Assembly (NCBI GenBank): GCA_963971405.1
Contig: OZ020487.1
Coordinates: 41,637,039-41,701,038 of the forward strand
DNA from: Psococerastis gibbosa
Lineage: Eukaryota; Arthropoda; Insecta; Psocodea; Psocidae
Direction of reading: 5' to 3'
Length of the DNA: 64,000 bases
A program made the position numbers and the translations under genes. Below are positions 1,630 to 48,090 of this stretch, piece by piece; position 1 is the stretch's first letter; the number at the start of each line of letters is the position of its first letter. Below the pieces are notes generated by a model. That model saw only the letters and a list, made by a program, of their open reading frames with translations. It did no database searches and was not told the DNA's origin.

Positions 1630-4600
1630 GTGACGACCACTTGTTACCTAAGCCTGGACTGCTTGACCCAGACTAATCGTGTTTCACTTGCTACCTTCTT
1701 CACAGGACACTCCTTAATTACCTGTCTTTTATTTGTCTTACTTCATTTCAGTTTGAAGTAAAGCGGCAATTCCACCGACCTCGTTTTGCACCGTGAGCGT
1801 GACATTAACGTGGTAGCAGACATTTTTAGACTGTCTTTAATGTCTGCTACCATGTCAGTGTCACGCTCACGGTGCAAAACGAGGTCGGTGGAATTGCCGC
1901 CTTAGTGTATTTATACTCTGAAAGTTGTGCATCCTGATTAAATCAATCTCCCCTGTAGCTTCAGCTGTTAGGCTGGAGGGAGCATGGAGACAACAGCAGC
2001 CCTATTAGGCGGCTATTCCACCGACGTCGTTTTTCATTGTGCTTGTGCATGACGTGGTAGCAGACATCATTAATAAGTCTCTGCCATATTATAACTTAAT
2101 TCATAATAGATAAGTTAAGTATCTACATTATAGTCTCCTTAAAATATGGCAGAGACTTATTAATGATGTCAGCTACCACGTCATGCACATGCACAATGAC
2201 AATGGAATAGCCGCCTAATGGCGATTTGGGATTAACGCAACACCGGCGTTTATGCAATTGTTTTAAGCAAATGAGTGCAAAATGCGCGGCAAATTCAAAT
2301 TGACAAATTAATCCTAGGCTATATTTTTGGTGAGTTATCAATTTTTTTTCTCCCTTAGCTGTAGACACATTAATTAAAATTCTTATAATTTTCTTGTTAA
2401 TTGTTTAATGCCGCATTAGTGAAGTGTCACGTGACTGTGTTAAAATATGCGCGGAAAATTCAAATTAATAAATTATTAAAATTACAGGTAGAATTTTGAA
2501 ATATAATAAGAATTGTAATTAATGTGTCTACATCGAAGGAAAAAAAATTGAAAACTCACAAAAAAATATAGCCGATGATTAATTTATTAATTTGAATTTC
2601 CCGCGCATTTTGCTCTCATTTGAATAAACCCCGGTGTTACGTTAATCCCAAATCGCTATAACAGGTAGGGTTTCAGGTATACGGGAATTTTTTTAGAGCG
2701 CGGGACCTTCCCTTACGTATACTAACGTACAATAGGTAGTTTCCCATTATTCTTTATGTAAGCCATAAGGATAGCAATGCATGAATAACTGCAACGAAAT
2801 TATCGAAACAATACAGCCCTTTCACATCCGCATTGTTTTCCACAAAATGTATTACTGGCGCTATAATAAAATATTTTCAAGGCTGCAATGGCAATAAAAA
2901 TCAGTAACAAAAGCTACCATGTGAAAAAAATGTGGTGTGCATATATTATACTGGAGTGTAGACCACAAATCGCGTCGACCCCCTGCAGTTTTAACTTCAA
3001 ATTTATAGCCTGCTGCACATTAATTCTAAAATGATGGCCAAGTTCTCAAACTGAGATCGTATACAAGCCAAACAGCGGCCTTGTGCCCAACTAATGAACT
3101 GTACCAGGGGTTCCCCAACTTTTTTGTCCGTTGTCCACTAGATTATTTTATGATTTTCCGTGGACCCCCATGGCTGTGATAGGAAAATCGTTCAATTCTA
3201 GGGTCAAATTATATATTGTAGTATTATATGGTATATATAACACTGACATTAAATTAACTTTGGTTGAAGAGGTAACCTCCTCGTTGTAACCGAAATTAGA
3301 GGATATGGAACGCCAAGCCCAGTTTTTTTCATATCCTCTAATTTCAAGATTAAGTAGCTTGTGCCTAAGACTACGAGCTAATATTTGGTTAAATGTTTAG
3401 AACTGGTATCGGGCGGATTTTGTAATTCAGACTTACTGTATTTTATTTCAAATTTCCAATAACTCAGCTGTTTTATTTTCTTACTTTGGCCCATGGACCA
3501 CCTGATGTGTCTGTGAACCACAGTTTGGGAACCCCTGATCTGTACTGCACAAAAAAGTCAAATTGCAGTGATTTGCGATGATTTAGTTGGCTACCTATCA
3601 AAGAACCTGTTTGAGTAAACCCATGAATGCCTTCCTATTTATCAATTCTGTAATAGTTCTTTTGTAAATAATTGTCCTATGGTTAAATTCCTTATGCCAC
3701 GAGTATTAATAATATATTTATTTAGTATTATGGTAGTGGAATATTCGTGTAAATGTATATAAGACTTTTCTGCTCGAGAAAGTGCCCCCACACAATTGCG
3801 GCCGAGTGGCCCCCAAAGGCCGAACCCGGCACTGAAGCCTGAAGGTACTTACCTAAATGTTTTTTTCTATATTCTTTCAGGCGAATGTACTAGCAGTAAT
3901 TGTATTGAAGAAAGTGATGGTGTGTCTTCGCCAACACCCAACCGATGGAGCATGCCGCTGTTGAAATTAGGAGAGAAGAGGTACTATCTAGGCATATTTT
4001 TTAAGGTAAGCAAACACATTTTTTCTACACCATTGACAGTCAGGTCATGTAGAGGAGTGGTACAGACTCCGACTTTCACCCGAAAGGTTGTTGGTTCGAG
4101 TCCCACACTTGCTACATTTTCTCGCCATGCTTCGGAAGGCATGTAAAGCGTGCAGTCCCGGGCTTTCCTAGTTGAGTGTAATAAAAGCTCTAATGCCGCT
4201 AGTTTGGTTTAGTAATAATTGAACAAAAAGTCAATATTTATTTATTTTATTTAGACAGTGGCGTAGCCAGAATATTTTTTTTTTGTCCGGTTTTCCTTGA
4301 AATGAATAGGTACACCAGTTTATCCACTTACGAGTACCACGGACGGCACGAATTCCCCTTATAAATCTAATGGAATGTTACTTTGTCCCAAGAGCTAGTG
4401 TCTTAAATATGACTTAGTCCGTTTCAACGATGGAAATGTTTTGAAATATTTTTTGTTTTGCTAAATTTGGACCAGACCTAGCAGACCCCTCTGGCTACGT
4501 GACTGACCATAGCACATAACATATAAAAAGGGTTAAGAGTGTACGTCAGTAGGAAATGGGTACCCCAAAATCTGTTATTTTTGTAGACTTCTTATTTTTT

Positions 4601-7600
4601 ATTTAATCCACAAAGCAAGACACCAAATACTTGGCTCATTTAAGTTGTAGAAGACTACTTCTTGAATCATATAGTAGGCTATTTTCAATTTTTGGTACCG
4701 CAGATTTTTCATAAAAATGATTGAGGGCTAAAATTTCACGTACAATCTAAATACCATGAAAAAAACTACAAAACCAAAAATTAATAATAGGTACCCTATC
4801 ATATGCTGTCTTCTGCAACTTTAATGAACCAATTTTTTAACAACTCTCTTATTCAATTAGATAAAAAAATAAGAAATATTAAATTTCGGGCTGCCAATTT
4901 GCTACGGGACTTAAAAGATTTTGTACGCTTCTTTAGACTATTTGCTAGTTGTTTTGGTTGATGATGATGATGTTGTTGTTCTGTTCTTAGCAACTAGCAA
5001 AGGCTATTGTTTTTTTTTTTTTTTTTTTTTTTAATATAAAGGTTAATCGCATACAAACAATTCAATGAATGTATTCAATTGACCTCTTCAGTCGCCTCAC
5101 TAAGTTACCTAATAGGTACTTGTTTATTGCTGACACGGTCTCAAATAGGCAGAAAGGTTTCTAAGGTGCCCATTCCATTGACCGGCTAGGGCTATTTCCA
5201 AAACCGGTGACGTGGTAGCAGACATTCAAGACTTAGGTGGCGTTTCCACCGACCTCGCATTGCAGAATTGACGGAAATGTTTATTTTCCTCTATGCCATA
5301 GTTAAAATTGATCAATGATCATACAGTAAAATCACAAACAAACAAACTAAAATTAAAAAATGGCGTCATGGGATATGTTAAGTTCAAACATTTTAATGGA
5401 TTTCTATAAAAAGAAAAATTCTAATTTCCGTCAATGTCATTTGCATTCTGCAATGCGAGATCGGTGGAAACGCTACCTAAGTCTTGAATGTCTGCTACCA
5501 CGTGTCTGTTTTTGGAAATAGCCCTAGCCGGTCAATGGAATGGGCGCCTAAGTAACGAATCGTCTGGGTATGAAACCTGCCTTGTGGTCCTTTGATTAGA
5601 TTAGGCAATGTTTCATAAATAATACGGTTATTTAAAATGTGGCCTTACATTGCACTAAACATTTCTATAAAAAGAAAAATTCTAATTTCCGTCAATGTCA
5701 TTTGCATTCTGCAATGCGAGATCGATGGAAACCCCGCCTAAGTCTTGAATGTCTGCTACCACGTGTCTGTTTTTGGAAATAGCCCTAGCCGGTCAATGGA
5801 ATGGGCGCCTAAGTAACGAATCGTCTGGGTATGAAACCTGCCTTGTGGTCCTTTGATTAGATTAGGCAATGTTTCATAAATAATACGGTTATTTAAAATG
5901 TGGCCTTACATTGCACTAAACATTTTTACGCTATTAATGAACTTATGTAGGGGGCCTTGGTGTTTAGGCAGCACCCAGACAAGGATATTATGAAGGTGAC
6001 ATTATAATGTCTTATAGGTCATTTATCCCGACCCGGTCACTTTCGTAATCAGGCGGATAAGGCGGGCATCCATAGCGTGTGCAATGAAGTGGCAAAAAGT
6101 TGTGACTGAGAGTAAGCTTGGAGGTTATAAATAAATAAATAAATATTGACTTTTTTTGTTCTATTACTAAGCCAAACTGGCTACAAAGCCGTCACTTACT
6201 CTTAACCAAGGCCGTAGCCAAGGGGGGTTACACCCCCCCCCCCCCCATATGAAATGGCTTGATAGGTACTTTTTTGAGAGGAAAAATAAAAACTACTATG
6301 AAATATCCAATGAAATTTGAGAAAGTTGACAGTCTCAACTAGGAAGACCCGGGACCGCCTGCTTTACATAATATGCCCTCCGAAGATTGGCCAGAAAATG
6401 TAGCAAGTGTTGGACTAGAACCAACAACCTTTCGGATGAAAGTCGGAGTCTACTACTATACATGTCCTGAGGTTCTGGATATAAGCTGATCATAGTCATA
6501 ATGAAGGTGTTTAGGTTGGAACCCTTCAAACTCATTTCCATTGACCACCTTTTGCTTTTTCCTTTGACATTTCCCCTTACGTTTCACCGCTATCGGCCTT
6601 ACTTAGCTTATGGCTAGGCGCCAGCTACTCCCTTTTATATCTTATTTCATATCATTCCAGAGGTGACGTCTAAGTTCCACATCCTCGTAAATCGGAGGGG
6701 GGGGGCTAGTAAGTGTAAAAATGAAATATGTCATAATATCATCTCATATCCATCGTATAAGAGCTGTTAAAAATATCAAAGAAAGAAAGAAAAATGTCTT
6801 TATTTTCCATATGGGCGAATTTTGGGCCTTTCGGCCCACTCTTACAATGAGGTTCTGTAGGGACAGTTTTGGTCACTAGGTTCGCTGACCACAAACCGAT
6901 ATCCATATTATTCAAAATGGCCGCCGTTTGCATGTGAAAACTAAGCTCCTTAGCATCTAATTAATTCTTTTAATATTTTTTATAATATTTTTACTATGCC
7001 TGGACCTTATTTCGCTGCATATAATTTAATATATATACTCTCCATGATTTATAGAAAAATGTCACTTTAAAATAATACGTAATTAAAAATAGTTTTAAAA
7101 TAGTATTGAGACTTATGGAAAAATCAACGCTTTGATATCATTGCAACTGGTGCTGCCATCTACAAAATGACGTCACAAATGAACCTCATTAACCCATCAG
7201 GATTTAAACAAATAAAATCTGAGGATTTTGATATGATATGACATGATATCTTTTTAACGCAGATTGGCCACAATTAATGAATTTGAATTTGATTTGTACA
7301 TGAAACGATTTGGTGTGGTAGTCTCGAGGACGGAGTTAAAGAACTGTGCCAATTGGTGTTAATCATATATATATATGACATATCGAAGTGTAGAGGAGCA
7401 TATCTGGTAATTTAGGGGATATTTTTGACGGCTCTAAGATCGATATTTCCTGTTAAAATCGACTTTGTACAAAACCGCGAAGTGGGGGCACTCCGATTTC
7501 TCTTAATTTAATAATTTACTTGAGTTGGTGCGGTTTTTCATCTGAGGGAGAAAGCCAAAATTAGACCAGCCAACTTCCCCTCCCTAGTATTATAATTCAT

Positions 7601-10600
7601 AGCTATATGCTTTGCTGACTGAAACTTGCCAAACTAGTCCAAAGTAGGTATTATCAAGCAGGGTCATCATATCAGAACAATGCGAGCCGTATTTTAATTA
7701 GCATCAATTCAATAATAATGTCTGAGAGTAAGGTTACCATTACGAGGCCAAATTTGAGAAATGTGCCCCTGCCAGGAGGGATAGCCCCGTCAAAACAGAA
7801 CAATTAATGTAGTCCTGAGGTGAAGGGAAACTGTGATAGGTCAATTATATGCCTAGGGCGATTGCCTGAATATTCTCATAAGTCTGAATAATTAAAAGAT
7901 ACCACTGTGACATGAAATCGACCCATTTAGTTCTGTTCAGTTCTGTGGGATGGCAGAACTCTGTAGATGTTGTGGTAAGCGACATTGACAATTTAGTCAT
8001 TCATTTTTAACCGTCAAGTAGGTGCATATATATAGGGTTTCCGACGTCGTAAAAAGAAACAAGAATGCAGGTACACTTAGAAACAGATCTAATTCAAGAT
8101 CTACTATCCAATAGCATAATATAATTTACTAAATAGATGCTAACTTAAGCCGCTTTCTTCCCTACAAGTCAAAGTCAAATTTAAGAACGATAAGGCACTC
8201 AATGGGGGCATGGTGGGTCCAGGACCAATGGAAAGGGTTTTCCTACTGTATCTAGGGACTAAAATATGGCCTATCAATAGGGGCAGCCATGCACTAGAAT
8301 TTGTGAACCTTGAATGGTGGTGAATAGGGTCAAAACTTACATTTGCATTTGTTTGGTTCTAACCCTCCAAGTCGTAGGTACCCAGGAATTCTGAGTGAGG
8401 GCGGGGGTTTCAGCCGAAATTACTAATAGTTAGTTTTAGTCGTATTTTAAGTTGTTAGTGCTACCCTCGCACGCCGCACTTTTGACCCTATGCACCACCG
8501 TTCGCGGTATTCGTTATTATTTTTATTTAATGTTTTTATATGCCACTACTACAGTTATTAACATATGTTTTTTTTTTACTTGGATGTTATAAATGGTTGT
8601 AGTGTTGATGGACGGTCCAACTTTTCTTGGATACAATCATACAATCAACATCAATCAGCCATCAGGATTGATGAGGTCGTAATTATTCACAGATTTTTCT
8701 CGAGCCTGATTGGTAATTACATATTACACATGGAATGCATACGTAACCAAGCTTGATCGCTTATGCATACAAGATCCGTGACGATATCCAGCATGTCAAT
8801 GATAGGACACCACAGTCTGGGGTTTTTTAATTCAAATTTTAGGCGCTTATTCCACCTACGTCAATAGTCAATAGTAAACACGGGTAATAACCTAGCGAGG
8901 CGACTGAAGAGGTCTATCGGATACATTCATTAAATTGTTTGTATGCGATTAACCTTTTTTGTAAAAAAAAAAAAAATGTGGTATTGACTATTGACGTAGG
9001 TGGAATATGCGCCTAACAGGAATATTAAAGTCTCATTGCTGAAAGTATGTGTTCGTCAACGTTTCCATCTAGCCTACAGCATTACGACTAGGCCCATTGT
9101 CGGTTCAATATAATATTACATTTCAATTTTATTTTGTTCAATATATTTTTTATATATACTGTACTTATTTATACGCCATCTTGTTTTCTACATAAAGACA
9201 TCCATCCTAAATACATATTCAACACCCATATTGGTTACAGTTTTGGATTAGTTAACTGTAAATAAATAAATAATAACTTCTATTACTACAATAATATAAC
9301 TTATAATACCGTACTACTGTATTTATAAGCCAACCTGGCCCATAGCCTCAGCCATGGCTTCTCGTACACTCAAGCGGGGGTCGCCTGCCTTGCTTTACAT
9401 GCCAGAAAATGTACCAAGTATGTGAGGCAAGAGAAGCGCAAGCGCATCTTAGGCGCCCATTCCATTGACCGGCTAGGGCTATTTCCAAAAACAGTGACGT
9501 GGTAGCAGACATTCAAGACTTAGGTGGCGTTTCCACCGACCTCGCATTGCAGAATTGACGGAAATGTTTATTTTCCTCTATGCCATAGTTAAAATTGATC
9601 AATGATCATACAGTAAAATCACAAACAAACAAACTAAAATTAAAAATGGCTTCATGGGATACTTTAATTACAAACATTTTAATAGATTTCTATAAAAAGA
9701 AAAACAAACATTTCCGTCAATGTCATTTGCAATCTGCAATGCGAGGTCGGTGGAAACGCTACCTAAGTCTTCAATGTCTGCTACCACGTCACCGTTTTTG
9801 GAAATAGCCCTAGCCGGTCAATGGAATGGGCGCCTAACATGCCAGGAAATGTACCATAAGTGTAAGGCAAGAGAAGCGTATATCTTAAGAACCTGTACCT
9901 TATTTTACACCCAAATCTCCCTGCAGCTTATTTGCAATTAGTACATTAAATAATCCAACATTAAAAGTGCAGTCAACAAACTTGAAGGACAAAAAACTAG
10001 GAAATTAGGTAATAACCTGGCTGCATAAGTAGTCGGAACATGTGGTTTGTAATTTAGTATGAAGTTGGATGTAATTATTATTTCCCATCCTTTAATTTCA
10101 GGCCAACTGGTACCGGGCGTCGCAATATTGTCGATATCACGGTATGCATTTAGCAAGCATTGCCAGCCAAGAGGAAAATGATAAGCTGGAGAGGCATATT
10201 CGAGACTTTGGTAAGTTGGTAACAGTGATATTTATGATTTAGTTAACGACATATGGGCGGGCCAGTTGATCGCTATCACGCGAGGCTCGCCCAGCGCAGT
10301 GCTTTGAGCTTCTTACATTTAGGCCTGGTTTATAGAAAACGTCGAATCAACTTATTCCTTATAACACTTACCGATCACAATAACCTTGAACAAACCATGT
10401 GCATTTATTTAAAAATGTAAAAAACTTGTGATATACGGTATGCTATGAAACCCCTGCAATATCGTCAAAAAGTTCTGAGTAAGTAACATTCCACGAATTG
10501 GGTAAAAATGAAATAAAAATGGCATTTCAGCTCGCCATAAAACACAGATTGACTTTGAAATAAGTTGAGTAGCACGCTAGGAGGTTAGGGGCAGTTTGTC

Positions 10601-11501
10601 GAATCAGACCTTTGTAAGGTGCCCATTCCATTGGCCGGCTAGGGCAATTTCCAAAAACGGTGACGTGGTAGCAGACATTCAAGACTTAGGTGGCGTTTCC
10701 ACCGACCTCGCACTGCAGAATTGACGGAAATGTTTATTTTCCTCTATGCCATAGTTAAAATTGATCAATGATCATACAGTAAAATCACAAACAAACAAAC
10801 TAAAATTAAAAAATGGCGTCATGGGATATGTTAATTATACAAACATTTTAATAGATTTCTATAAAAAGAAAAATTCAAATTTCCGTCAATGTCATTTGCA
10901 TTCTGCAATGCGAGATCGATGGAAACCCCGCCTAAGTCTTGAATGTCTGCTACCACGTAACCGTTTTTGGAAATAGCCCTAGCCGGTCAGTGGAATGGGC
11001 GCCTTATAGTGAAGAATACCGGTAGGTATAGGTAGCACATTAGAATCCACCCTTGGCTTCAATCAGCGGGCACGCCCTGCCACGACGGTAGTCACGCTTA
11101 ATCGCTGATCTTCCTTCGAAACAATTCTTATTTTTATGTCTTTTAATAACTTTGTTACCTCGTTTTTGGGATACTTAAGAGTCACTTTACGACCAACCTG
11201 AAATTTAACAGAGGGCTGATCTTTTGGTACAGGGAGATAACATTATTTTCTTTGTGTAGGGCTCGGCCATGAACACTTCTGGACTTCAGGCACCGACCAG
11301 GCTGAAGAAGGCACATTCTTCTGGATGTCCACAGGACGGCCCATCACGTTCACCAACTGGAACACTGGCGAGCCTAACAACTTCCGATACGAGAACGGCG
11401 AAGAGGAACATTGTTTGGAATTGTGGAATAGAGACGGCAAGGGTCTCAAATGGAATGATTCCCCATGTTCCTTTGAAACATTTTTTGTTTGTGAGGTGTG
11501 A
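1494..11501 (+). CDS. Secreted C-type lectin, 4 exons (1494-1629, 3881-4005, 10102-10210, 11260-11501)
   Basis: The exons join in phase (1, 0, 1) to give 203 residues. Residues about 21-45 form a hydrophobic signal peptide; the start could be the first Met (1494) or a Met 20 codons later (1551), which gives a more typical signal peptide. A Cys pair (48, 53) lies in a short linker. A C-type lectin domain covers about 70-203, with the four canonical Cys at 97, 175, 193 and 201, the calcium/sugar motif EPN at 161-163 and WND at 188-190. In this family EPN usually predicts mannose-type rather than galactose-type binding, and single-domain insect lectins of this kind act in pathogen recognition or extracellular matrix; the role here is inference. 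Introns contain SINE and MITE copies. The gene is convergent with MsrA. The least certain part is exon 1, whose donor (GTGACG) is weak although its phase fits. Confidence 0.85.
1762..1901. repeat. Palindromic MITE, GGCG/GACGTGG superfamily
   Basis: Nearly perfect hairpin of 140 bp with arms of about 65 bp, lying in lectin intron 1. The centre carries the shared module (ACGTGGTAGCAGACAT and its complement). Flanks are TAA on the left and TTA on the right. The long AT-poor arms should fold into a strong stem in RNA. Confidence 0.85.
2008..2215. repeat. Palindromic MITE, GGCGGCTATTCC end type
   Basis: Inverted ends GGCGGCTATTCCA and TGGAATAGCCGCC, flanked by TTA and TAA. The inner arms again carry GACGTGGTAGCAGACAT. 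The middle (TTAAGTATCTACATTATAGTC) recurs almost unchanged in the copies at 22175 and 30566. Confidence 0.85.
2219..2658. repeat. Long-inverted-repeat element of about 440 bp
   Basis: Both ends carry about 150 bp of imperfect inverted repeat starting TGGCGATTTGGGATTAACG. It directly abuts the MITE ending at 2215. A half copy with the same end is at 12216-12418. No coding sequence is seen, so it is probably a non-autonomous DNA transposon. Confidence 0.75.
3105..3537. mobile_element. Non-autonomous hAT-type element
   Basis: Terminal inverted repeats begin CAGGGGTTCC and end GGAACCCCTG. The flanks are AACTGTAC and ATCTGTAC, an 8-bp target-site duplication with one mismatch, the hallmark of hAT insertion. 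Its interior (3240-3345) carries a block shared with the tRNA-like repeat near 33365-33540. Confidence 0.8.
3881..4005 (+). CDS. Lectin exon 2
   Basis: Preceded by a pyrimidine-rich tract ending TTTCAG and followed by GTAAGC. Codes for the acidic linker and the start of the lectin fold, including the YYLGIFFK strand that is well conserved in insect lectins. Ends in phase 0. Confidence 0.88.
4041..4253 (+). repeat. tRNA-derived SINE
   Basis: Has a recognisable pol III A box (TAGAGGAGTGGT at 4050-4061) and B box (GGTTCGAGTCC at 4093-4103), a tRNA-unrelated body and a (TATT)n tail. It begins 36 bases after lectin exon 2. Related copies in reverse orientation are at 6123-6475, 9255-9440, 23455-23665 and 56205-56385. 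Confidence 0.8.
4256..4505. repeat. MITE with CAGTGGCGTAGCCAG ends
   Basis: The left end CAGTGGCGTAGCCAG and right end CTGGCTACGTGACTG form an imperfect inverted repeat. It follows directly on the SINE tail. I could not find a matching 8-bp target duplication, so hAT assignment is by end sequence only. Confidence 0.5.
4534..4927. repeat. Long-inverted-repeat MITE (GTTGTAGAAGAC family)
   Basis: About 390 bp palindromic element. Both arms contain AAGTTGTAGAAGAC and its complement, and it ends with the TTTCGGGCTGCCA motif. Other copies are at 14023-14408, 13951-14880 (interrupted) and 56809-57216. Confidence 0.7.
5010..5110 (-). repeat. Poly(T) run plus A-tailed SINE-like fragment
   Basis: On the - strand this reads a short conserved body (cattcattgaattgtttg, then a gcgattaacc motif) followed by a long A run. 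The same body is at 165, 8900, 30388 and 57425, each with an A-rich end, which suggests a retroposed short element of unknown origin. Confidence 0.5.
5165..5548. repeat. MITE family A, copy 1
   Basis: 384 bp element. Outer inverted ends are GGTGCCCATTCC / GGAATGGGCGCC, and an inner inverted repeat contains GACGTGGTAGCAGACAT and GGCGTTTCCACCGACCTC. Flanked by TAA on both sides, a 3-bp duplication. The unpaired middle (about 5290-5400) is AT-rich with short ORFs judged non-coding. Full-length relatives are at 9452, 10618, 19460 and 22516. Confidence 0.85.
5401..5922 (+). repeat. 261-bp tandem duplication spanning a MITE end
   Basis: The unit 5401-5661 is repeated at 5662-5922 with very few differences. 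It contains the right third of MITE A copy 1 plus about 110 bp of flanking DNA. The differences cluster in the inner inverted repeat (GGTGGAAACGCTACC versus GATGGAAACCCCGCC). Confidence 0.85.
6123..6475 (-). repeat. tRNA-derived SINE, reverse copy
   Basis: On the - strand it reads the same head (A box and GGTT-type B box near 6415-6470), body and (ATTT)n tail as the SINE at 4041. A C-run of about 14 bases interrupts the body at 6233-6246. Confidence 0.7.
6777..6845 (-). repeat. Retroelement 3' end with (CTTT)n tail
   Basis: On the - strand this reads GCCCATATGGAAAATAAAG followed by CTTTCTTT repeats. The same end is found at 17408-17475 and 53092-53160. It looks like the 3' terminus of a LINE, with an AATAAA-like signal; the parent element is not in the window. 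Confidence 0.55.
6846..7190. repeat. MITE with AATGAGGTTC ends, copy 1
   Basis: 345 bp element with 10-bp inverted ends AATGAGGTTC / GAACCTCATT. A second copy, in opposite orientation and close to 90% alike by eye, is at 32142-32483 in an NCOA5 intron. Confidence 0.75.
7191..8841. other. Lectin intron 2 interior, no gene seen
   Basis: About 7310-7500 matches, in inverted orientation, sequence next to the palindrome at 29033-29408. Otherwise unremarkable AT-rich DNA with short chance ORFs. Confidence 0.5.
8842..9013. repeat. Palindromic MITE with SINE-like insert
   Basis: The ends GGCGCTTATTCCACC / GGTGGAATATGCGCC are followed by about 17 bp more of inverted repeat. Flanks are TTA and TAA. 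The centre (about 8890-8980) is a copy of the A-tailed SINE-like repeat, so a retroposon seems to have landed inside the hairpin. Confidence 0.75.
9452..9834. repeat. MITE family A, copy 2
   Basis: Same outer and inner inverted repeats as the copy at 5165. Flanks TTA (left) and TAA (right). It lies immediately after a degraded SINE copy (9255-9440), in lectin intron 2, and ends 267 bp before exon 3. Confidence 0.85.
10102..10210 (+). CDS. Lectin exon 3
   Basis: Starts after TTTCAG at 10101 and ends at a GTAAGT donor. Codes for the first lectin helix with the first canonical Cys, and the MHLASI strand followed by the EEND helix, a standard C-type lectin signature. Ends in phase 1. Confidence 0.9.
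10618..11003. repeat. MITE family A, copy 3
   Basis: 386 bp, in lectin intron 3. Flanks TAA and TTA. Its right inner arm has the variant GATGGAAACCCCGCC also seen in the second tandem unit at 5662-5922. Confidence 0.85.
11260..11501 (+). CDS. Lectin exon 4 (sugar-binding half and stop)
   Basis: Starts after TGTGTAG and runs to TGA at 11499-11501. Contains the FWTSGTD strand, the EPN loop, the WND motif and the last three disulfide cysteines. No clear AATAAA was noticed in the few hundred bases after the stop. Confidence 0.92.
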
Positions 11502-13171: not shown

Positions 13172-13313
13172 GGCGGGGTTTCCACATACGTCAATGGTCA
13201 ATGAGAAATATGAAATTGACGTGGTAGTAGACATTTTTAGTATGTCTTTAATGTCTGCTAAAACATCAATTTCATATTTCTCATTGACCATTGACGTATG
13301 TGGAAACCCCGCC
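13172..13313. repeat. Palindromic MITE, GGCGGGGTTTCC end type
   Basis: 142-bp near-perfect hairpin with TTA on both sides, a clean 3-bp duplication. It contains GACGTGGTAGTAGACAT in one arm. It lies about 320 bp beyond the MsrA stop codon, so it may be in or near the 3' UTR. Confidence 0.88.
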
Positions 13314-16800: not shown

Positions 16801-18951
16801 GTAATGTTTGACTTATACTCCAGTTGCATGGGTGTGTTATGTGTGCCTCCTCCTCCACGAAAAATTATTTTCTGTTGCATATTAGACTCAGGCGGCTATT
16901 CCACTTATAAATAATCCGTCATTTGTGCTTCAATAATTGAAGAGATTTTTTTTACTCTACAGGTATATAAAAACAAAAATCTCATCAATTATTGATGCAC
17001 AAATGACGGAATATTGACAAGTGGAATAGCCGCCTTAGAGGCGAACACATTAGAAAGATACAATATTAAGGATAGCTACAATAGGTACTTACTCCTCAGC
17101 GTCATAAAATATAGGAGCAGGAACTATTGTCGTAATTATGGATCCTTTCACCTTAGATTGTTGCTCCTTGAGGGTCTGCTCAGCCAATGCTTTTTGCTCA
17201 TCGTTGTGGTAAAAAATAATAGATGTATACTGTAATGTAAAAACAAAGTTTATTTACAACTAGTTAGTGTGCTTACACAAAGTCACCCATTCCAGTAACG
17301 CGGGGTGAAATCAGCCAAAAGGGTAAAACTGCAAATACAATATAATAAATGTGCCTACAAATTGCGCTGTAATTAACTAGCACTTGACCTGAGCGTATAT
17401 ATTGTAAATAGAAAGAAAGAAAGAAAATTGGCTTTATTTTCCATATGGGCGAATTTTGAGCTCACTCTTATAATTAATCAATCTGACAGTTTCCTCTTCA
17501 ATCAAATACAATTTAACAGGAAATATACATCGTAGAGCTGTAATGGCCCAAAAGGGTGTATAGGGCAGATTACTGGTTCAGCAAGCAGGTCTCCAAGAAG
17601 ACCTGATTAATAAGTTAGAGGATTCGAACTGAATGACATTTAAAATGATGGTTCAACGAACGTTTTAAATGCATAAATATCAATGTTATAAGCCAGAGGC
17701 TGGTACATAGACTAACGGTATACAGTATGACAGATTAGGATATAGTAAGCTATAGGAATATTACAGAGCTATGTAAAAAATGTCCATCTACATTTCGATT
17801 TACATTACATGGCTGTCATATGGCTACATTTTTGGAATTTCTTCAATTTGACATCCTAGTGTCGTTATCTAGTCACGTTCCAAAACTGTAGCCAATTTGT
17901 GTTAATCTTCTTTTTCTTTTAAAGCCTTTTCTATCAAAGATTGGCGATAATCATGGCAATTGACTGCTGTTCTGATAAGGGAAGTCGTACTCTTGTCATA
18001 CCACTGCCTCAGGTTTTTCAATGCAGGAAGTTCTTATTCTGTTAGTGCCACATATGTCACATAATGTACGAAAAACTTTGAAGGACATTTCAACTCGCAA
18101 TCAGACATTTTTTATAATTCGAAATTCCTTTGTAATTTGATTTTTTACACCCGTAAGGTTTTTCCAGCTCAGGTTGATTCAATGGCCCGGTGTACACCGA
18201 CGGTTCTCGCAGTCGCCATTTGCCGAGTCCTTCAAAAATAATAATAAAAGATAAGGCTAGTAGCCTACCATACCTGTTTTGTGGCTCTATCAGTTGCATC
18301 ATGGTTTGACCAAAATAGCTTCAGCAGGTCTGAATACTTGATTTCATTAGGGTCAAAATCAATCTCGATGGCTTCAGTATAATCGCCGATATTCTTGTAT
18401 GTAGGAATGCCTGTACTCCCTCCAGTGAATCCAACCCGCGTGCGAATGACACCTTTTGTGGCGCCAAAGAGAGAGTCTGGGCCCCAAAAGCAGCCCATGG
18501 CGAATGTCGCCTTTGTGGTTTCAATGTTTACTTCGTGTAGAGGAGCCATACCCTAAAAAAACGCATAATACAATAAATAGGAACCGGGGAGACCCATGCA
18601 TAGACTTGAAGGAGAGAGAATTGTCAATATAATCTGTTTAAAAGCTTCTAGTCCCTAAAGTTCGGACCGACTCCACAGTCTCACATTAACAATTCATATA
18701 ATTGTTGAATTAGATGTTCATGCTTGAAATTAAGGTGCGTTAAAAACACACTACTGCTCTTACGGCTAGTGCTTTTGAATGAGACATATTTACATGCTGC
18801 ATGTACAGTAACCTTGAAGGATATGATAACTGAAGCAGTTGGACTTGCCCGACTGCTTGGTGCTTTCACAGCTTCAATCACTCACCTTTGTTGAGATGTA
18901 GACGGAACGACCGCCTAGACGTAATACAGTCGAAAGTAGTGACTGAATCAT
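13636..18951 (-). CDS. MsrA: Peptide-methionine (S)-S-oxide reductase MsrA, 4 exons (18951-18886, 18552-18274, 17229-17093, 13876-13636)
   Basis: Reduces methionine-S-sulfoxide in proteins and free methionine. The exons join in phase (0, 0, 2) to 240 residues. Residues 1-22 are basic and hydroxylated without acidic residues, as in a mitochondrial targeting peptide, and a Met at 24 could give a cytosolic form. The MsrA catalytic motif GCFWG is at 42-46 (nucleophile Cys43), followed by the GGS/PTY region, the FYHNDEQK helix and the YHQKY motif. The protein ends GHGLFC, whose terminal Cys is probably the resolving cysteine. Length fits animal MsrA. The 3.2 kb third intron is packed with nested transposons and a Penelope-type fragment. 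Confidence 0.92.
14023..14408. repeat. Nested long-inverted-repeat MITE (inner copy)
   Basis: Ends AAGAGTGTACAGCCCGTAGG / CCTACGGGCTGTATGTACAC, with long imperfect arms. It sits inside the element starting at 13951. Confidence 0.75.
14533..14701. mobile_element. hAT MITE related to the full hAT at 43037
   Basis: 169 bp. Ends CAGGGACGGCTTCAG / GGATCGGTCCCTG, bounded by an exact 8-bp duplication TAAAGACC (14525-14532 and 14702-14709). G and C runs lie next to the ends. The right-hand block (AATTTCCTTCAAAAGTCCA and following) matches the right end of the 4.4 kb hAT at 43037-47422. Confidence 0.92.
15505..16070 (-). pseudogene. Penelope-type GIY-YIG endonuclease fragment
   Basis: On the - strand the frame from about 15915 to the TAA at 15505-15507 reads a GIY-YIG domain: GVYRLNCNDCNAIYIGQTGR and then a conserved Arg/His/Glu stretch (TRVREH). 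It ends in a Pro-rich tail. About 30-60 bases upstream the frame has a stop, and homologous sequence continues in another frame to about 16070. The C-terminal position fits Penelope-like retroelements. No reverse transcriptase is visible. It sits in MsrA intron 3. Confidence 0.75.
16891..17034. repeat. Palindromic MITE next to MsrA exon 3
   Basis: Ends GGCGGCTATTCCACTT / AAGTGGAATAGCCGCC, with inner AATCCGTCATTTGTGC shared with the copy at 22175. It ends 58 bp from exon 3, inside intron 3. Confidence 0.85.
17093..17229 (-). CDS. MsrA: MsrA exon 3
   Basis: Acceptor TACATTACAG and donor GTAAGT. Codes for YTSIIFYHNDEQ through the FYDAE stretch that precedes the conserved YHQKY motif. Ends two bases into an Asp codon completed by exon 4. 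Confidence 0.9.
18274..18552 (-). CDS. MsrA: MsrA exon 2 (catalytic core)
   Basis: Codes for the GCFWG motif and the core up to the NHDAT region. Ends at a GTATGG donor after ACAAAACAG, phase 0. Confidence 0.92.
18886..18951 (-). CDS. MsrA: MsrA exon 1 (presequence)
   Basis: A 22-codon exon, too short to stand out as an ORF. ATG at 18951-18949; it ends at a strong GTGAGT donor. The next exon has a TTTTTTAG acceptor in matching phase 0 just upstream of the second Met. The Arg-, Ser- and Thr-containing peptide with no acids suits mitochondrial import. Confidence 0.75.
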
Positions 18952-19459: not shown

Positions 19460-19844
19460 GGTGCCCATTCCACCGACCGGCTAGGGCTATTTACAAAAAC
19501 AGAGACGTGATAGCAGACATTCAAGACTTTGGCGGGGTTTCCAGCGACCTCGCATTGCAGAATTGACGGAAATGTTTATTTTCCTCTATGCCATAGTTAA
19601 AATTGATCAATGATCATACAGTAAAATCACAAACAAACAAACTAAAATTAAAAAATGGCCTCATGGGATATGTTAAGTACAAACATTATAATAGATTTCA
19701 ATAAAAAGAAAAATTCTAATTTCCGTCAATGTCATTTGCATTCTGCAATGCGAGGTCGGTGGAAACGCCACCTAAGTCTTGAATGTCTGCTACCACGTCA
19801 CCGTTTTTTTTAAATAGCCCTAGCCGGTCGGTGGAATGGGCGCC
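19460..19844. repeat. MITE family A, copy 4
   Basis: 385 bp with TTA on both sides. It lies between the MsrA start and the SSADH 3' end. Outer and inner inverted repeats are well preserved. Confidence 0.88.
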
Positions 19845-30300: not shown

Positions 30301-33300
30301 TGCTACAACGTTTCTAGGAAACGTTTGGGCAACTGAAACTAAATTTAATTTTTACGCAATTATTTTCTTTCTTCTTTGTTTTCTTAAAAAAAGGTTAAAT
30401 CGCGTACAAACAATTTAATGAATGGATCCGATAAACCTCTTCAATCGCCTCACTAAGTCACCTAATAGGTACTTGTGTCGATTTAAGACACGCCTCCGTC
30501 CGCAAGGTGTGTAGAGACTCGCACAAGTACAAGCATGCTACCACTTTGCCACCGAAGTCGCTTATGGCGGCTATTCCACCGACGTGGATTTTCACTTGTG
30601 ACTGTGTCATGACGTGGAAGCAGACAGCATTAATAAGTCTCTGCCATATTTTAAGGAGACTATTATGTAGATACTTAACTTATCGATTATAAATTAAGTT
30701 ATAATATGGTAGTAGACGTCAAATGTGAGTCTGCTACCACGTCGGCACGACGATTAGTGCAGGAAATGGTCGGTGGAATAGCCGCCTAAATTTATAGAAC
30801 AAGGAATGATCGTAGCTACCCTAATTATTTGTGACTCACCTGAATACTTTCAGGATGACGGTCGGCCAGTGTTGGAGCCCCCAGAGGAGCGGCTATGGGA
30901 ACTTCTGACGGTCGAGTAATTCCCTTCAGTTTGTACTCTTCGTAGCTTCGGGTCACGAGAGCCAGTGCGTCCTCGAGCGGCATGTTACGATGTTCTATAA
31001 TGTTATAATTGTACACGAATATCATCAACCCTAAACGTTTATTATTAAAATTCATGCAAAACTGTTACCTTGTTTATGTTTTATGGATACCTGGTTATTG
31101 GTGTGTTCAAAATGACGTGATGTGCCGGTACACTTGATTTAATGACAAACTTTAATAGTGAATTATACTCGAAGTTCTAGGGCTGTAGAGCCACAGTGGC
31201 TCGTTAAAATTGTATGCAGTTCAAGTATGTTGCCGTTAAACAAGCACGATATTTTAAAATTAATAAAATTTTCTTACCGCCGGTCTTTCGTTTTCGAAAT
31301 ACTTATACTGGTTGACTATTACTTGATTGTATAATTTAACAGAAATATACAGTATTATAGGCTACTTTTATTTATTTATTCGCGGTATTTTTTTTTAGTT
31401 TTAATTTTTTAGCTAGCCTACATTTCTTTAAATTCAAAATATTTAATATTCAAAAATTTAAAAGTAGGTGAGACAGCCTCATTTGTCTCCAATAGCGAGC
31501 CAACATTTGTAATTTATGAAATTCTTGATTGAGAAGAAAAAACTTTAACTCTGCTACTGAATCATCAACCACTTTGGTTCACGCCTGTAGATCCATTAAT
31601 TACCGGTTTTTAATATAACTAATTCTTAATATATACAGTATATATATCATATGTATATCAATGTAATCAAAATTGAATCATTTCCCCGCGAAACCGAAAA
31701 AGCCAGCAATCTTTGAGTTTTGTATTCAAGATAAAATTAATTAAATTAGTTAAATATGCAGGTTTAAATTAATTAATTAAAAAATAATAATTTAGCAGCT
31801 TTAATCAACATAAATTTAATTTCCGCGCTCCATTCCGCAGTAGAATTTAAGCCATGTAACCGCTCAAAATTCATAACAATTTATTGAATCATCAACATTT
31901 TCTCTATTCACACCTATCTTTTCACTTGCATTAATTCTGCTGTTAAGCTGGTAGAGTAGCCCTTTGGGGCTAAAGCTCGCGTACTATACAGAGGTTTTTA
32001 ATTAGTTTTTTCATTTTATTTTATTTACATGCTCCAGAAGGATTGGGTTTTTATTGGCAAACAGTAGCACGATTTTACAGTAGGCAACGTGCTACTTTAA
32101 ACATATAGTCGATGATGTCCTTATGTACTACAAGGCTAACCAATGAGGTTCATTTGTGACGTCATTTTGTAGATGGCAGCACCAGTTGCAATGATATCAA
32201 AGCGTTGATTTTTCCATAAGCCTCAATAATATTTTAAAATTATTTTATTCATGCATTATTTTAAAGTGATATTTTCCTATAAATCATGGAGAATATATAT
32301 ATTGAATTATATGCAGCGAAATAAGGTCCAGGCAGAGTAAAAATATTATAAAAAATATTAAAAGAATTAATTAGATGCTAAAAGCTTAGTTTTCACATGC
32401 AAACGGCGGCCATTTTGAATAATATGGATATCGGTTTGTCGTCAGCGAACCTAGTGACCAAAACTGTCCCTACAGAACCTCATAGCCATAAACTGCATAA
32501 TTTTGAAGGCAGTTTAGGAGTGTGTAACTGTAACTGAACATTTTTATCTGATCGTGACTTCTTACCCTGATGTAACAGATTTAACAGCACCAACCTATCG
32601 GTAAATTCACATTGATGGCTACTAAAATAATTATAATCTTCCATTTTGCAACCTTTTTTAAAAAATAAATCATAATTATTTTTGACGTAAGTTTATACAA
32701 TAAATTTTGCCATCGTTTCCGTTCACCCAGTTTAGTGTTCTAAATGCGGAAAAATGTGTCCGGAGGGGCAAATTTAAGCATGTGCTACGTCATTATATCA
32801 TATCAAATATAGCTGGTAATTTTATTTTAATTCATTTAAGTTATTTAGACTAGGATGGAAAATTTAAATTTTAAATTTTATTTTTAGGCGGCACCGCGTA
32901 AGTTATAAATAATACAGCTCCAAATATAATGAGCAGCTGAAAAAATTTAATATTTTATTAACCACGATCAGTATTGCATTATAATACGACTGCAAATAAC
33001 TCACCACCCGATTTAAATTACACATCATTATTATTGTGTATGCCCGTTAAACAGCGAAGAATGTTGCTCACAGATCAGTATAGCACATCAACTTTAATTT
33101 AGAATTAGGTTTGCCAGTAAAATATGCAAACCTTTAAGAGAAGCACTGCTGCAGCTTTGCATATAACGCGTTTTCGGCAAGAATAAAGGACACGAATCAA
33201 GAGGCATATTTAAATTTCTGCCTCTTCTTGACGCCCGTAGCAAGTAAGGCGCCAATAGAGAACTGCTGTCCTATAAAAAAACAATTCTGCAAAATGTCCT

Positions 33301-39300: not shown

Positions 39301-41410
39301 ATGTATGATAAAGATTTATTCCTAGAAATAACATCTAAGGTGACTCTGACCAACTACTAGACTGTTAAATTCGACTGAAAAATTGTCAGCTGCCACGTTT
39401 TTCACTGTCCGAAAACATTAAATAATATTTCCGGTACATGGCCGTAATGCAATAGCAAGTGTGTAACCACATCAAACAGCGCAAATATCCGCAAGAATCG
39501 CGCGCCTTTTCAATTAAAAAAAAAGTGCATTAAACAGACTTTATAGAATAGTAGTACCGTAAATCAGTAGGTGAAAGAGGCAGCATGAAGTGAAATCTTT
39601 CACCTGGCCACTTTAATGTCTTTGAGGCTGTAGAGCGAGAAATTAATTAATTTTTATCAAAAATACAATCCTCCTTTACAAAATATTTTACAATGTGTCC
39701 CACAAAACTGACTTCTTCACTCTAAAGCCAAATTGAACCGAATTCCGTAATAATTGATACGCGGAAATCTGTCTTGGATTATTATTATCTGCCGTTTACC
39801 TATGGCGAGGTTTCCACCGACCTCTCATTGCAGAATGCAAAGACATTGACGTGGTAGCAAACATTCAAGACTTAGGCGGGTATTCCAGAATGCAAATGAC
39901 AATTTTTGTTTTACTCTATGCCACAGTTAAAATTGATCAATGATCATAGGGTAAAATCACAAACAAACTAAAATTAAAAAATGGCGCCATGGGATATGTT
40001 AAGTACAAATATTTTAATAGATTTCTTTAAAAAGAAAAATTCATTTTTCCGTCAATGTCATTTGCATTCTGCAATAAGAGGTCGGTGGAAAACCCGCCCA
40101 AGTCTTGAATGTCTGCCACTTCGTCAATGTCTAGGCATTCTGCAATGAGAGGTCGGTGGAAACCCCGCCTATGCATTTTGATGAATACTCACCCACGACG
40201 GTACCAAATTTCTCCAGCAGAGTAATTACTTCTTCCCTCGTCATGATATCAGTGTGTAATCCTCCAACAAATATACGAGAGCTGACTTTAGAGGGATCTG
40301 TCATCATTTCTCGCTCTTCAGGCGAACTCCAGTGTTGCTGACTAAACCGAGGGCTCGTGTTCATCATTTCTAAAAACAATACATAATCATTTTAAAAGTT
40401 GCTATCATGGTTTACTTTTTTGTTCTCGGCAGGCCAGGATGAGGCTGCTGAAATTCGATCGAATCGTAATTATGTTCTTTCCTATTAATTTATAAAATAT
40501 TCCTGCAGTACCCCAGCAAATAATAAAAGCCACTCCAAATTACACCGTTTAAAATTCCCTTGGATAGCAGTAATACTCAAAAAATATAACTTATATATAT
40601 ATTTTAAGGCTTGATAAAATTTCCGTGTGGATATCCGGCAGTGTATTAGTTGCAATATAAAATAAATAGTAACGAACTAATCCACCTTTTTTTAAAACTC
40701 ACTGGGTGTCATCAATGTGAGACATAAGAATCGTTGGTCAAGAATTAATGATATGTTGTTTTGTAGAAACCCTAGAAGTGGAAGACTTATTTGTTTTTAC
40801 AACGCTTAATCTGTCTCCGGCATAGCCCATTTTTCATGTCGATAAGTAGCCTTGGAAGGTATACTGTTGGTGCATGTAATTGTGTTCATGAAATAGGTGG
40901 TTATTGCATGCAAAAAATTTTATGGAAAGGCGTGTCAGAGGCATCCTAATAAAACAATCCTTGCTTTTTAACATAAATTGTTTTGCAAATTTGTCGGAAT
41001 CCATTTTTATCTGACTTTGTGTACAGCTTAAGTTAACCTTAAGACCAAACTATTTCTTTGCTGTGGTCTTGAGTGTTTTCTTTCATTATTTTGGTAATCA
41101 CAAATCAGGATCATCTGATCATTTTACTCCCGTCTTCATTTTAACTAAAATTGTAGCTGCAATACCATACCTAACGGCGGGGGATTTCAGTATTCAGTAA
41201 ATAAGTTTGAATAGACACAAAAATGCAAAATATAGTACTGAGCAAAAAGGTGGATAGGGATGGGGAGCCCTGCTTGACTACCCCTCCTCCAAATCGAGTG
41301 CTGGATCTGCCCTGAATTCTAACATAATTCTGAAATAAAAACTACCAACCGTTAATTTCGTTCTTTTGCCTGTCGTAGAACGCTTTATTTGGATTAGCCC
41401 ACGACGCCAT
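24155..41410 (-). CDS. NCOA5: Nuclear receptor coactivator 5 orthologue, 9 exons
   Basis: Exons 41410-41350, 40369-40193, 38921-38811, 37336-37204, 36954-36844, 35107-34908, 30994-30840, 26883-26748 and 24369-24155 join in consistent phase to 432 residues. Residues 52-115 form an RRM (RNP2 IFVGGL at 53-58, RNP1 KGFGFVQY at 85-92). A basic/acidic linker follows, then the NCOA5 core (EIIVVNKSQT, EYAEYIE, NEEHRS, EHRNMPLEDA, about 190-300) and the LXXLL motif LLNLL (318-322), which in this family contacts nuclear receptors; an AENRMLT/YDKII helix follows. The C-terminal tail is Ala/Pro-rich. In mammals NCOA5 is a nuclear cofactor tied to transcription. Introns contribute about 16 kb and are full of MITEs. 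Confidence 0.93.
24501..24854 (+). repeat. SINE with 5S-rRNA-like head, copy 1
   Basis: An exact 10-bp target duplication GAATAGCACT bounds it (24491-24500 and 24855-24864), and it ends in an A-rich tail (AAAAAAGAAAAGAAAAAG). The head at 24505 begins GCCAACGGCCTTACCAAG, like the start of arthropod 5S rRNA. Position 24582-24587 (GTTGGC) can pair with the first six bases as in 5S helix I. Further copies are at 62832-63502 (reverse, interrupted) and 63828-64000 (cut by the window end). Confidence 0.7.
24904..24967. repeat. Short palindrome, CTGCAGCCTGATCG family
   Basis: Almost complete palindrome with ends CTGCAGCCTGATCGGGG / CCCCTGGATCAGGCTGCAG around TAATACCGGTATTA. The same ends bound 53700-53876 and 59996-60069. 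Confidence 0.8.
25093..25553. repeat. MITE with GGGGCCGTCCATTAATCACGTG ends
   Basis: 461 bp. Left end GGGGCCGTCCATTAATCACG and right end CGTGATTAATGGACAGCCCC are inverted repeats. G-rich blocks flank the middle. Elements with this kind of end are widespread in arthropod genomes; I could not identify the target duplication or superfamily. Confidence 0.7.
25665..25860 (+). repeat. RTE-type LINE 3' fragment
   Basis: Degraded copy of the extreme C-terminus of an RTE-like polyprotein (a GGRRRNS and CCQPIV-type remnant of the better copy at 33786-33966), ending near AGCAGAAGATAAA. Confidence 0.55.
25994..26087. repeat. Short palindromic element
   Basis: Ends GATTACCATACGAATTATCT / GATAATTCGTGTGGTACCGGG form an imperfect hairpin of about 94 bp. 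Only copy seen here. Confidence 0.6.
26213..26395. repeat. Long near-perfect hairpin
   Basis: 183 bp. About 65-bp arms starting CAAAATGAGAAAAGTATGG pair with their complement almost without mismatch, around a loop of about 50 bases. Located in NCOA5 intron 8, roughly 350 bp from the LXXLL exon. No flanking duplication identified. Confidence 0.8.
26748..26883 (-). CDS. NCOA5: NCOA5 exon 8 (LXXLL motif)
   Basis: Acceptor TTTTCCAG, donor GTAAGT. Starts with LLNLL, the receptor-binding type motif, then AENRMLT and a helix ending in a charged stretch. Confidence 0.92.
28251..28316. repeat. Deleted palindromic MITE
   Basis: Only 66 bp. Ends GCGGGGTTCCACTAACGTC / GACGTTGGTGGAATCCCC correspond to the hairpin at 47952-48090 with the module lost. 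Confidence 0.7.
29033..29408. repeat. Long-inverted-repeat element, about 376 bp
   Basis: Arms of about 135 bp (start CTTAAGGGCAAATCGCAG, end CTCTTAAG) with scattered mismatches, in NCOA5 intron 7. A half copy lies near 38660-38760. Confidence 0.75.
29711..29989. repeat. MITE with GTATTGTCATCCGCCATT ends, copy 1
   Basis: Inverted ends containing GGTATTGTCATCCGCCATTT. A second copy in opposite orientation is at 34163-34447, in the next intron of NCOA5. Confidence 0.8.
30388..30475 (-). repeat. A-tailed SINE-like fragment
   Basis: Same body as at 5038-5110 and 8900-8985. It stands about 90 bp before the palindromic MITE at 30566. Confidence 0.55.
30566..30786. repeat. Palindromic MITE next to NCOA5 exon 7
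   Basis: 221 bp; ends GGCGGCTATTCCACCGACGT / GGTGGAATAGCCGCC. Left arm has GACGTGGAAGCAGACA; the right has two TGCTACCAC-type blocks. It ends 54 bp from the exon 7 donor. Confidence 0.85.
30840..30994 (-). CDS. NCOA5: NCOA5 exon 7 (core)
   Basis: Acceptor CATTATAG, donor GTGAGT. Codes for EHRNMPLEDALALVTRSYEE and ends in phase 0 at HPESIQ, directly before the LXXLL exon. Confidence 0.95.
31056..32141. other. NCOA5 intron 6 interior, no gene seen
   Basis: Very AT-rich DNA with short simple repeats (ATATAT near 31620-31660, TTAATTAATTA near 31770). No repeat family with a second copy in the window was recognised. Confidence 0.4.
32142..32483. repeat. MITE with AATGAGGTTC ends, copy 2
   Basis: Inverted copy of the element at 6846-7190. 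Same 10-bp ends. Confidence 0.75.
33365..33545 (-). repeat. tRNA-like SINE of a second family
   Basis: On the - strand GGTGGTTAGGCGTAGATCG is followed by GGGTTCAAATCCTGCC, a good tRNA B box, and two CTGAAATTAGAG arms bracket the tRNA-like part. The flanking block ACATTAAATTAACTTTGGTT also occurs at 3245. Could be a degenerate true tRNA, but the bracketing repeat argues for a SINE. Confidence 0.6.
33786..33966 (-). repeat. RTE-type LINE 3' end, 5'-truncated
   Basis: On the - strand one frame reads RRGPPKKEFMDQLKED, then ARTYQELKR and FWELLPTNR before a stop, typical of RTE polyprotein ends. It finishes in an AAGAAGAAGAAG tail like that of the RTE at 50380-52736. Confidence 0.7.
34163..34447. 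repeat. MITE with GTATTGTCATCCGCCATT ends, copy 2
   Basis: Inverted relative to the copy at 29711. It directly abuts the next element. Confidence 0.8.
34450..34849. repeat. MITE with AAGGCTG ends next to NCOA5 exon 6
   Basis: 400 bp; left AAGGCTGTGTTCAAAATG and right CATTTTGAACACTCAGCCTT are inverted repeats extending about 35 bp through TTGTAAACAAGAAATT. It ends 59 bp before the exon 6 end. Confidence 0.8.
34908..35107 (-). CDS. NCOA5: NCOA5 exon 6 (core)
   Basis: Acceptor TTTGGTCAG, donor GTCAGT. Codes for EYAEYIEGKLRRSGLAVDLL and the NEEHRSITLNILHG region, the most conserved part of the family. Confidence 0.95.
35520..35715. repeat. Interspersed repeat shared with 52758-52935
   Basis: Starts near GTAGACCGTTATCAATATGG and includes ACAGAGTTTTGACCG; about 190 bp. 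The second copy follows the RTE insertion site at 52758. Type unknown. Confidence 0.6.
36844..36954 (-). CDS. NCOA5: NCOA5 exon 5
   Basis: Acceptor ATTTTCAG, donor GTAAGT. Ends with the conserved EIIVVNKSQ stretch at the start of the NCOA5 core domain. Confidence 0.92.
37204..37336 (-). CDS. NCOA5: NCOA5 exon 4 (linker)
   Basis: Acceptor TGTTTTAG, donor GTAAGT. Arg/Asp/Pro-rich linker (RDRSPIG, DRGREPSR), reminiscent of the RD-rich N-terminal part of vertebrate NCOA5. Confidence 0.88.
37337..38810. other. NCOA5 intron 3, no gene seen
   Basis: Contains an AT microsatellite near 37630-37680 and a half copy (38660-38760) of the palindrome at 29033. A motif around ATGAGCGATATAT recurs in inverted orientation at 37835 and 38170, suggesting another diverged inverted-repeat element of about 330 bp. 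Confidence 0.45.
38811..38921 (-). CDS. NCOA5: NCOA5 exon 3 (second half of RRM)
   Basis: Acceptor TCTTTCAG, donor GTAAGT. Carries RNP1 KGFGFVQY and the last RRM strand. Confidence 0.93.
39804..40169. repeat. MITE family A relative ending 23 bp from NCOA5 exon 2
   Basis: 366 bp; its ends GGCGAGGTTTCCACCGACCT / AGGTCGGTGGAAACCCCGCC correspond to the inner repeat of family A, here used as the terminus. Flanked by TAT on both sides. Inside is a second nested set of the same repeat. Confidence 0.8.
40193..40369 (-). CDS. NCOA5: NCOA5 exon 2 (first half of RRM)
   Basis: Acceptor TTTTTAG, donor GTGAGT. Carries the RNP2 motif IFVGGL. The MITE at 39804-40169 ends only 23 bp past the donor. Confidence 0.92.
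41350..41410 (-). CDS. NCOA5: NCOA5 exon 1 (start)
   Basis: ATG at 41410. Codes for MASWANPNKAFYDRQ and ends one base into a Glu codon that exon 2 completes. Donor GTTGGT is non-consensus but the phase fits. I saw no ATG further upstream in frame with a better context. Confidence 0.8.
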
Positions 41411-46366: not shown

Positions 46367-46460
46367 CATTGAGGTCGGGTTAATTACAGTAGTAGAAGCA
46401 TCAGGTGCAGTGGTCACTGATTGTGCATCTGTGGCTAATTCCGCTAAATCAGATTTTTCA
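46367..46460 (-). pseudogene. hAT transposase, upstream exon A
   Basis: Ends in a GTGAGT donor in phase 0. It reads a Thr/Ser-rich peptide (TDAQSVT, STTVINP) similar to exon B, so the two look duplicated. The 5' boundary is unclear because all frames meet stops near 46465. Confidence 0.45.
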
Positions 46461-47935: not shown

Positions 47936-47951
47936 ACATTTTACGCCATCG

Positions 47952-48090
47952 GGCGGGGATTACATCAACGTCAATAGTGATATTAAATGTTTTTTGACGT
48001 GGTAGCAGACAGTTTTAGACTGTCTAAAAATGTCTGCTAACACGTCAAAAAACATTTAATATCACTATTGACGTTGGTGGAATCCCCGCC
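47952..48090. repeat. Palindromic MITE, GGCGGGGATT end type
   Basis: 139 bp near-perfect hairpin with the module GACGTGGTAGCAGACA. Its arm AACGTCAATAGTGATATTAA matches the deleted copy at 28251-28316. Confidence 0.88.

Follow-up and report, generated by a model that had tools for sequence, protein, structure and literature searches.

The window analysed here is a stretch of 64,000 nucleotides from the insect Psococerastis gibbosa (assembly GCA_963971405.1, contig OZ020487.1, positions 41,637,039 to 41,701,038 of the forward strand), which harbours a group of miniature inverted-repeat transposable elements (MITEs), listed in Table 1 and named in the following by their first position. An initial annotation had proposed about 15 elements with common GGCG-type ends. 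All 15 places can indeed be read as inverted-repeat elements with ends of the GG(C/T)G...TTCCA type, some of them mutated, including single ends of 1762, 22175 and 47952. A right end was sought for all 15 starts: an automatic search for end pairs recovered 13, element 2008 was recovered separately, and the right end of 28251, weakly recovered with 6 mismatches in 16, was also read by eye. The elements are 67 to 386 bp long, except that 5165, with its repeated right arm and flank, reaches up to 645 bp.

Table 1 Elements of the MITE group in the window, with the three bases flanking each side
Feature	Position	Strand	Length	Flanks (left/right)	Remarks
short hairpin MITE	1762..1901	.	140 bp	TAA/TTA	module in both arms
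mid-size MITE	2008..2215	.	208 bp	TTA/TAA	AT-rich centre C; module
class A composite MITE	5165..5809	.		TAA/TAA	right end 5548 or 5809; inner element from 5236
MITE without module	8842..9013	.	172 bp	TTA/TAA	
class A composite MITE	9452..9834	.	383 bp	TTA/TAA	
inner element of class A copy 9452	9523..9763	.			truncated MADF start, tblastn match 9646-9702
class A composite MITE	10618..11003	.	386 bp	TAA/TTA	
short hairpin MITE	13172..13313	.	142 bp	TTA/TTA	
short MITE without module	16891..17034	.	144 bp	TCA/TTA	
class A composite MITE	19460..19844	.	385 bp	TTA/TTA	
MITE without module	22175..22345	.	171 bp	TAA/TAA	part of centre C (by eye)
class A composite MITE	22516..22892	.	377 bp	TAA/TAA	
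decayed short copy without module	28251..28317	.	~67 bp	AAA/AAA (by eye)	
mid-size MITE	30566..30786	.	221 bp	TAT/TAA	centre C; module
class A copy, outer arms of inner-element type	39804..40169	.	366 bp	TAT/TAT	
short hairpin MITE	47952..48090	.	139 bp	TCG/CAT	

A 17-bp module, GACGTGGTAGCAGACAT, links most of these elements. It has seven exact copies in the window and, with mismatches allowed, is present in 11 of the 15 elements, being absent from 8842, 16891, 22175 and, as judged by eye, 28251. Throughout the 409-Mb genome the exact 17-mer occurs 13,052 times in forward and 13,220 times in reverse orientation. These 26,272 copies compare with none for the reversed control. The elements are one very large kin group. 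The anatomy of this group was studied on 54 elements that could be followed to either end (13 from the window and 41 from fetched loci), after two rows of the end-pair search (L062, L063) that had caught inner boundaries were dropped. The module is found in 102 of the 108 arm ends, 38 of the 54 copies having been chosen via the list of exact 17-mers, and its distance from the end is 43-46 bp in 99 arms, 51-54 bp in two and 67 bp in one. The six arm ends without it all come from 8842, 16891 and 22175. Both the module's presence in most elements and the existence of one related group, as initially claimed, are thereby borne out.

The end motif and the module are separated by a spacer of about 28 bp. 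It varies among families, but within an element the two arms are largely alike. Compared by eye, the spacers of 13172, L058, L056 and 47952 intergrade, and those of 9452, 1762 and 39804 do not. The centres are of three kinds: a short loop in hairpins about 140 bp long, an AT-rich centre C in 2008, 30566, L034, L048 and partly 22175, and the nested arrangement of class A. The hairpins and AT-rich-centre elements of the earlier description were thus both seen. The mosaic appearance of the group can be read as stemming from three sources, namely spacers that differ between fixed motifs, centres that are shared, and a single nesting.

In class A, the commonest type of the group, one element sits in the palindromic centre of another at one fixed place. 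While 38 full-length copies were gathered, the consensus used for this contained the inner element, so that nestedness is there by construction; an independent count was obtained by seeking outer arms by their spacer alone. This search gave 85 matches, of which three without the module were judged to be chance. Among the remaining 82 outer arms, 81 enter the inner element at the identical place (AAGACTTA | inner), and the one arm that does not, in L033, has suffered a deletion. With ends of its own, the inner element measures about 242 bp. Copies of class A differ from their consensus by 1.3-7.2% (26 copies), and a 26-mer of the class A centre has 3,104 + 3,204 = 6,308 exact copies in the genome. 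The nested unit has multiplied as a whole after one nesting event. A guessed empty outer palindrome had no match genome-wide at up to three substitutions, a weak negative given that the guessed site may be wrong and that indels were not covered.

The claim that one complete inverted-repeat set is wrapped inside another therefore holds for class A, and the free mixing of interchangeable blocks gives way to one fixed arrangement. Element 39804, with outer arms of the type found in the inner element, does show a block in terminal position that is internal in class A, just as had been pointed out. This does look like an arm exchange; beyond this apparent case, swapping did not emerge as a general process, and of the two routes originally offered it is nesting that stands.

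Which sites did these elements enter? Both flanks are TWA (TTA or TAA) in 36 of the 54 copies, in keeping with the 3-bp TWA targets anticipated for a PIF/Harbinger-type source. The three flanking bases are identical on the two sides in 29 copies, which include ATA, TAT, AAA, CAA and TAC pairs, and since these non-TWA pairs agree over three bases the target duplication is truly 3 bp. The two copies of a duplication often disagree: 25 of the 54 pairs are non-identical, 17 of them differing at the middle base alone and eight otherwise. Even the 36 TWA/TWA copies divide into 22 with identical and 14 with mismatched flanks (nine TAA/TTA, five TTA/TAA). Point mutation would be expected to produce a T/A change of the middle base in 2-5%, and the observed mismatch is far commoner. 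It is also unrelated to age: discordant class A copies diverge by 3.4% (10 copies) and concordant ones by 3.7% (17 copies), with no excess on the discordant side. The tests on mismatched duplications were devised after the data had been seen.

The inner element of class A offers a hint to the origin of the group. Its centre holds ATGGCGTCATGGGATATG..., which reads MASWDMLSTNILIDFYKKK, the truncated start of a MADF gene. When aligned with MASWSRTTTTYLIQFYERR, the MADF start of locus L086 (C12:2374.0k), this peptide scores 53, a value reached by none of 2000 shuffles, and the other 19 of the 20 MADF starts examined score at most 20. The similarity extends to the DNA of the leader, which in the MITE copy L061 aligns over about 90 nt including the hairpin arm CAYAGAGTAAA (none of 500 shuffles as good); this arm is CATAGAGTAAA in L061 and CACAGAGTAAA in L086. 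For window copy 9452 the score of the leader alignment was likewise reached by 0 of 500 shuffles.

The matching MADF gene has company. A transposase match of the L066 type stands at about 1.4-2.2 kb from L086, which is itself inside a transposase/MADF locus, and the L066 protein matches DDE_Tnp_4 and Plant_tran; a DDE_Tnp_4 transposase with a MADF partner is thus present in the same genome. To describe this arrangement, 95 transposase match rows were merged into 66 loci and set against 113 MADF rows with a neighbour limit of 6.5 kb. A MADF match falls within that limit at 33 of the 66 loci, and in 31 of these 33 all MADF matches lie downstream on the opposite strand. Leader and gene start occur together at five places, three of which (C12:2373989, C56:42660, C2:18435029) are transposase/MADF loci. 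By similarity, then, what the inner element of class A contains is the leader hairpin and the opening codons of a MADF gene, relatives of which are convergent to a PIF/Harbinger transposase. Since this start and leader match genes convergent with such transposases, a PIF/Harbinger element with two convergent genes is the probable source lineage.

An inverted copy of the outer part of the leader (up to 41 bases) adjoins the leader at eight places, 5' of the MADF start, standing 4-6 bp away at six of them and overlapping it at two. Among these sites are C12:2374144, within C12:2374139-2374183, and C56:42815, within C56:42810-42854. This inverted repeat is perhaps a promoter or binding site, and a hairpin with related arms is kept in the MITE.

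Taken as a whole, we consider it likely that the elements are non-autonomous, Tourist-like PIF/Harbinger MITEs with a two-gene source, moved in trans. Such a source would have carried the transposase gene from one end and the MADF gene from the other, and the inner element would have arisen from it through an internal deletion. Both end motif and module may be the sites bound by the transposase or the MADF protein, which would keep them constant while the spacer drifts, and the families may stay palindromic because one arm is now and then copied onto its partner. Elements of the two-gene lineage would then have mobilised the MITEs in trans.

Several observations weigh against this account. Sequence derived from an autonomous element, in the form of the MADF start and leader hairpin, is confined to the inner element of class A, and nothing ties the outer arms or the short hairpins directly to a coding sequence. 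The leader similarity of window element 39804 is not significant (14 of 500 shuffles), and short MASW peptides had no Pfam match. Two of the 33 transposase/MADF loci are not cleanly convergent, and no transposase match is near two of the places with leader and start, C20:15211387 and C12:48256457. DDE_Tnp_4 matches were inspected in eleven stretches of 5 kb, of which five resemble ISL2EU by eye (L018-L022) and six are PIF/Harbinger-like (L023, L064-L068). Within the 5 kb inspected, none of the eleven shows the MITE ends as the transposon's own terminal inverted repeats (TIRs). The PIF/Harbinger-type source initially suggested is probable through the MADF leader and start. A shuffle test, applied to L066-L068 only, found no end in their flanks clearly above shuffles, and L023 carries a different TIR. 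Neighbouring MITE copies lie within or next to L018, L023 and L066. In L078 (C15:11073041-11073191), a 14-bp class A end stands immediately 5' of the start of a MADF gene. A guessed pattern for this type of end gave nine matches, none of them at sister MADF genes, which is why the L078 end is not used as evidence.

The target-site duplication rules applied here are those of PMC4482050. Mobilisation by another group, be it ISL2EU with its AT target, piggyBac or Kolobok with TTAA, or Stowaway/mariner with TA, appears quite improbable. DDE_Tnp_4 loci that resemble ISL2EU by eye are abundant in the genome, one of them with a YqaJ frame, but the duplications of the MITEs span 3 bp and, in the non-TWA examples, are identical over all three bases. 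This agrees neither with the 2-bp AT duplication of ISL2EU nor with the TTAA target of piggyBac and of CMITE elements, and identical ATA, AAA, CAA and TAC triplets are at odds with the 2-bp TA duplication of Stowaway (mariner). PMC4561436 gives a length of 2 bp for Stowaway, with TA in its figure legend, and a MADF partner is described as the second gene of insect PIF elements in PMC9710019.

It is still less probable that a single simple family has merely decayed into these forms. The copies of class A are one family by their low divergence from the consensus, but short hairpins, centre-C elements and class A each have a length, centre and spacer of their own, and every element has arms that match one another. 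The initial annotation had named such a family, along with a chance sharing of the module, as grounds on which its own view would fall, and neither came to pass. That unrelated repeat families have the module in common by chance is barely credible, for even with spacers that look dissimilar by eye beyond end motif and module (1762 and 9452, for example) and three window elements lacking the module, its copy number against the reversed control and its near-fixed distance from the same end motif argue otherwise.

Judged by target type, coding remnant and genome content, the elements look like members of the Tourist-like PIF/Harbinger MITEs. With mPing and its kin, as portrayed in PMC4482050 and PMC4561436, they share 3-bp TTA/TAA targets, two-gene autonomous PIF/Harbinger partners and an origin by internal deletion. 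Unlike these, they have long palindromic arms, a subterminal module common to several families, a nested composite that multiplied as a whole, and non-identical TWA pairs in 14 of 36 cases. Parallels can also be drawn to CMITE of Acropora corals, where, according to PMC2872659, the internal region is more conserved between families than the TIRs, and where CMITE-IN forms a new mobile unit through insertion of a MITE into another sequence. The coral elements differ in that CMITE is described there as piggyBac-related with TTAA, and CMITE-IN as a CMITE between direct repeats with an estimated 70 or so copies in A. millepora. With insect PIF elements, which PMC9710019 describes as having a transposase gene and a MADF gene, the comparison is close as well, except that MADF matches here often come in tandem pairs and that the MITE retains only the first codons of the MADF gene. 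A 14-mer core of the module, on either strand, had no occurrence in the literature searched.

How can the two copies of a target duplication differ so often? One tentative explanation is that the mismatched TWA pairs record a carry-over of the donor overhang during transposition. For mPing, Gilbert et al. (PMC4561436) proposed cutting with staggered ends at the target-site duplication that leaves 5' overhangs. If an element left its donor site with the 3-nt TWA of that site still attached as a 5' overhang, the overhang could anneal into the target gap, whereby the outer T and A would pair, the middle base might mismatch, and repair would pick either base; we infer from ordinary geometry that the excised element bears the other strand of the overhang. 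The simple equilibrium of this scheme, derived by hand, predicts about one third of discordant pairs, which may be compared with the observed 14 of 36; a difference confined to the middle base, as in 17 of the 25 non-identical pairs, fits the scheme as well. Against it stands that 45 of the 46 new insertions of an mPing flanked by TCA duplications went into TTA/TAA, as reported in the same article, and that mPing therefore seems not to carry donor bases along. The eight pairs that differ outside the middle base count against it, too. For these two reasons carry-over is held here as a minority reading.

Two further explanations are both unlikely. After insertion, the palindrome might fold and a W:W mismatch between the paired TWA copies be repaired. 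In its favour, flanks of TTA/TAA or TAA/TTA are just what would lengthen the palindrome, and 67 non-consensus arm states are alike on both arms, set against 271 that are not, with three rare ones alike. Such repair should, however, also render private arm mutations symmetric, and in 38 copies none is symmetric versus 67 asymmetric ones; nor are discordant class A copies more diverged than concordant ones. The arms hence become alike in founder lineages and not measurably so after insertion, which speaks against repair in the folded palindrome. An exchange between copies that swaps flanks is no better placed: eight of the 54 copies combine a non-TNA triplet on one side with another triplet on the other, which speaks for it, yet it should also break non-TNA pairs, and of the 15 copies with a non-TNA end 7 are identical where about two would be expected from exchange frequent enough to account for the 14 (P about 0.001 in a post hoc test). 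Inheritance of the mismatch as part of the element was also tried and rejected, nearest neighbours sharing their state in 9 of 27 cases with a null mean of 13.9.

Three features set this group apart: the numbers reached by the nested unit, arms in which two motifs bracket a free spacer, and mismatched target duplications. A transposase that accepts any sequence as the spacer between two fixed motifs would open a route for the radiation of MITEs in which arms differ and centres are shared; under such tolerance even a nested element can become a new and highly successful mobile unit. The mismatched duplications, if confirmed genome-wide, would be thousands of natural records of how PIF/Harbinger elements are cut and joined, a process for which the experimental evidence considered here is one yeast study. 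Should carry-over prove true, the target duplication in this class would be a donor-target hybrid instead of a pure duplication.

Other transposase loci of the genome came into view along the way. At L018 (C2:19671000-19676000) a transposase frame stands beside a YqaJ nuclease frame, as in ISL2EU, and many matches of equal score together with open frames suggest that the ISL2EU-like loci were recently active. PIF/Harbinger transposase matches cluster at C3:25540480-25842276, with five of equal score, and at C14:20360646-20848827, with at least six of similar score, suggesting local duplication over about 0.3-0.5 Mb. In the window itself, an unbroken aldehyde dehydrogenase frame of 495 amino acids (Pfam Aldedh, E 4e-163) occupies 20340-21827 on the minus strand. 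Three adjacent frames follow on the same strand at 43500-45317, where 44021-44941 matches DUF4371, as in hAT-type transposases, and no relation to the MITE ends was seen there. On the plus strand, 50693-52711 is an open frame of 672 amino acids that resembles, by eye, a reverse transcriptase of the non-LTR (non-long-terminal-repeat) type.

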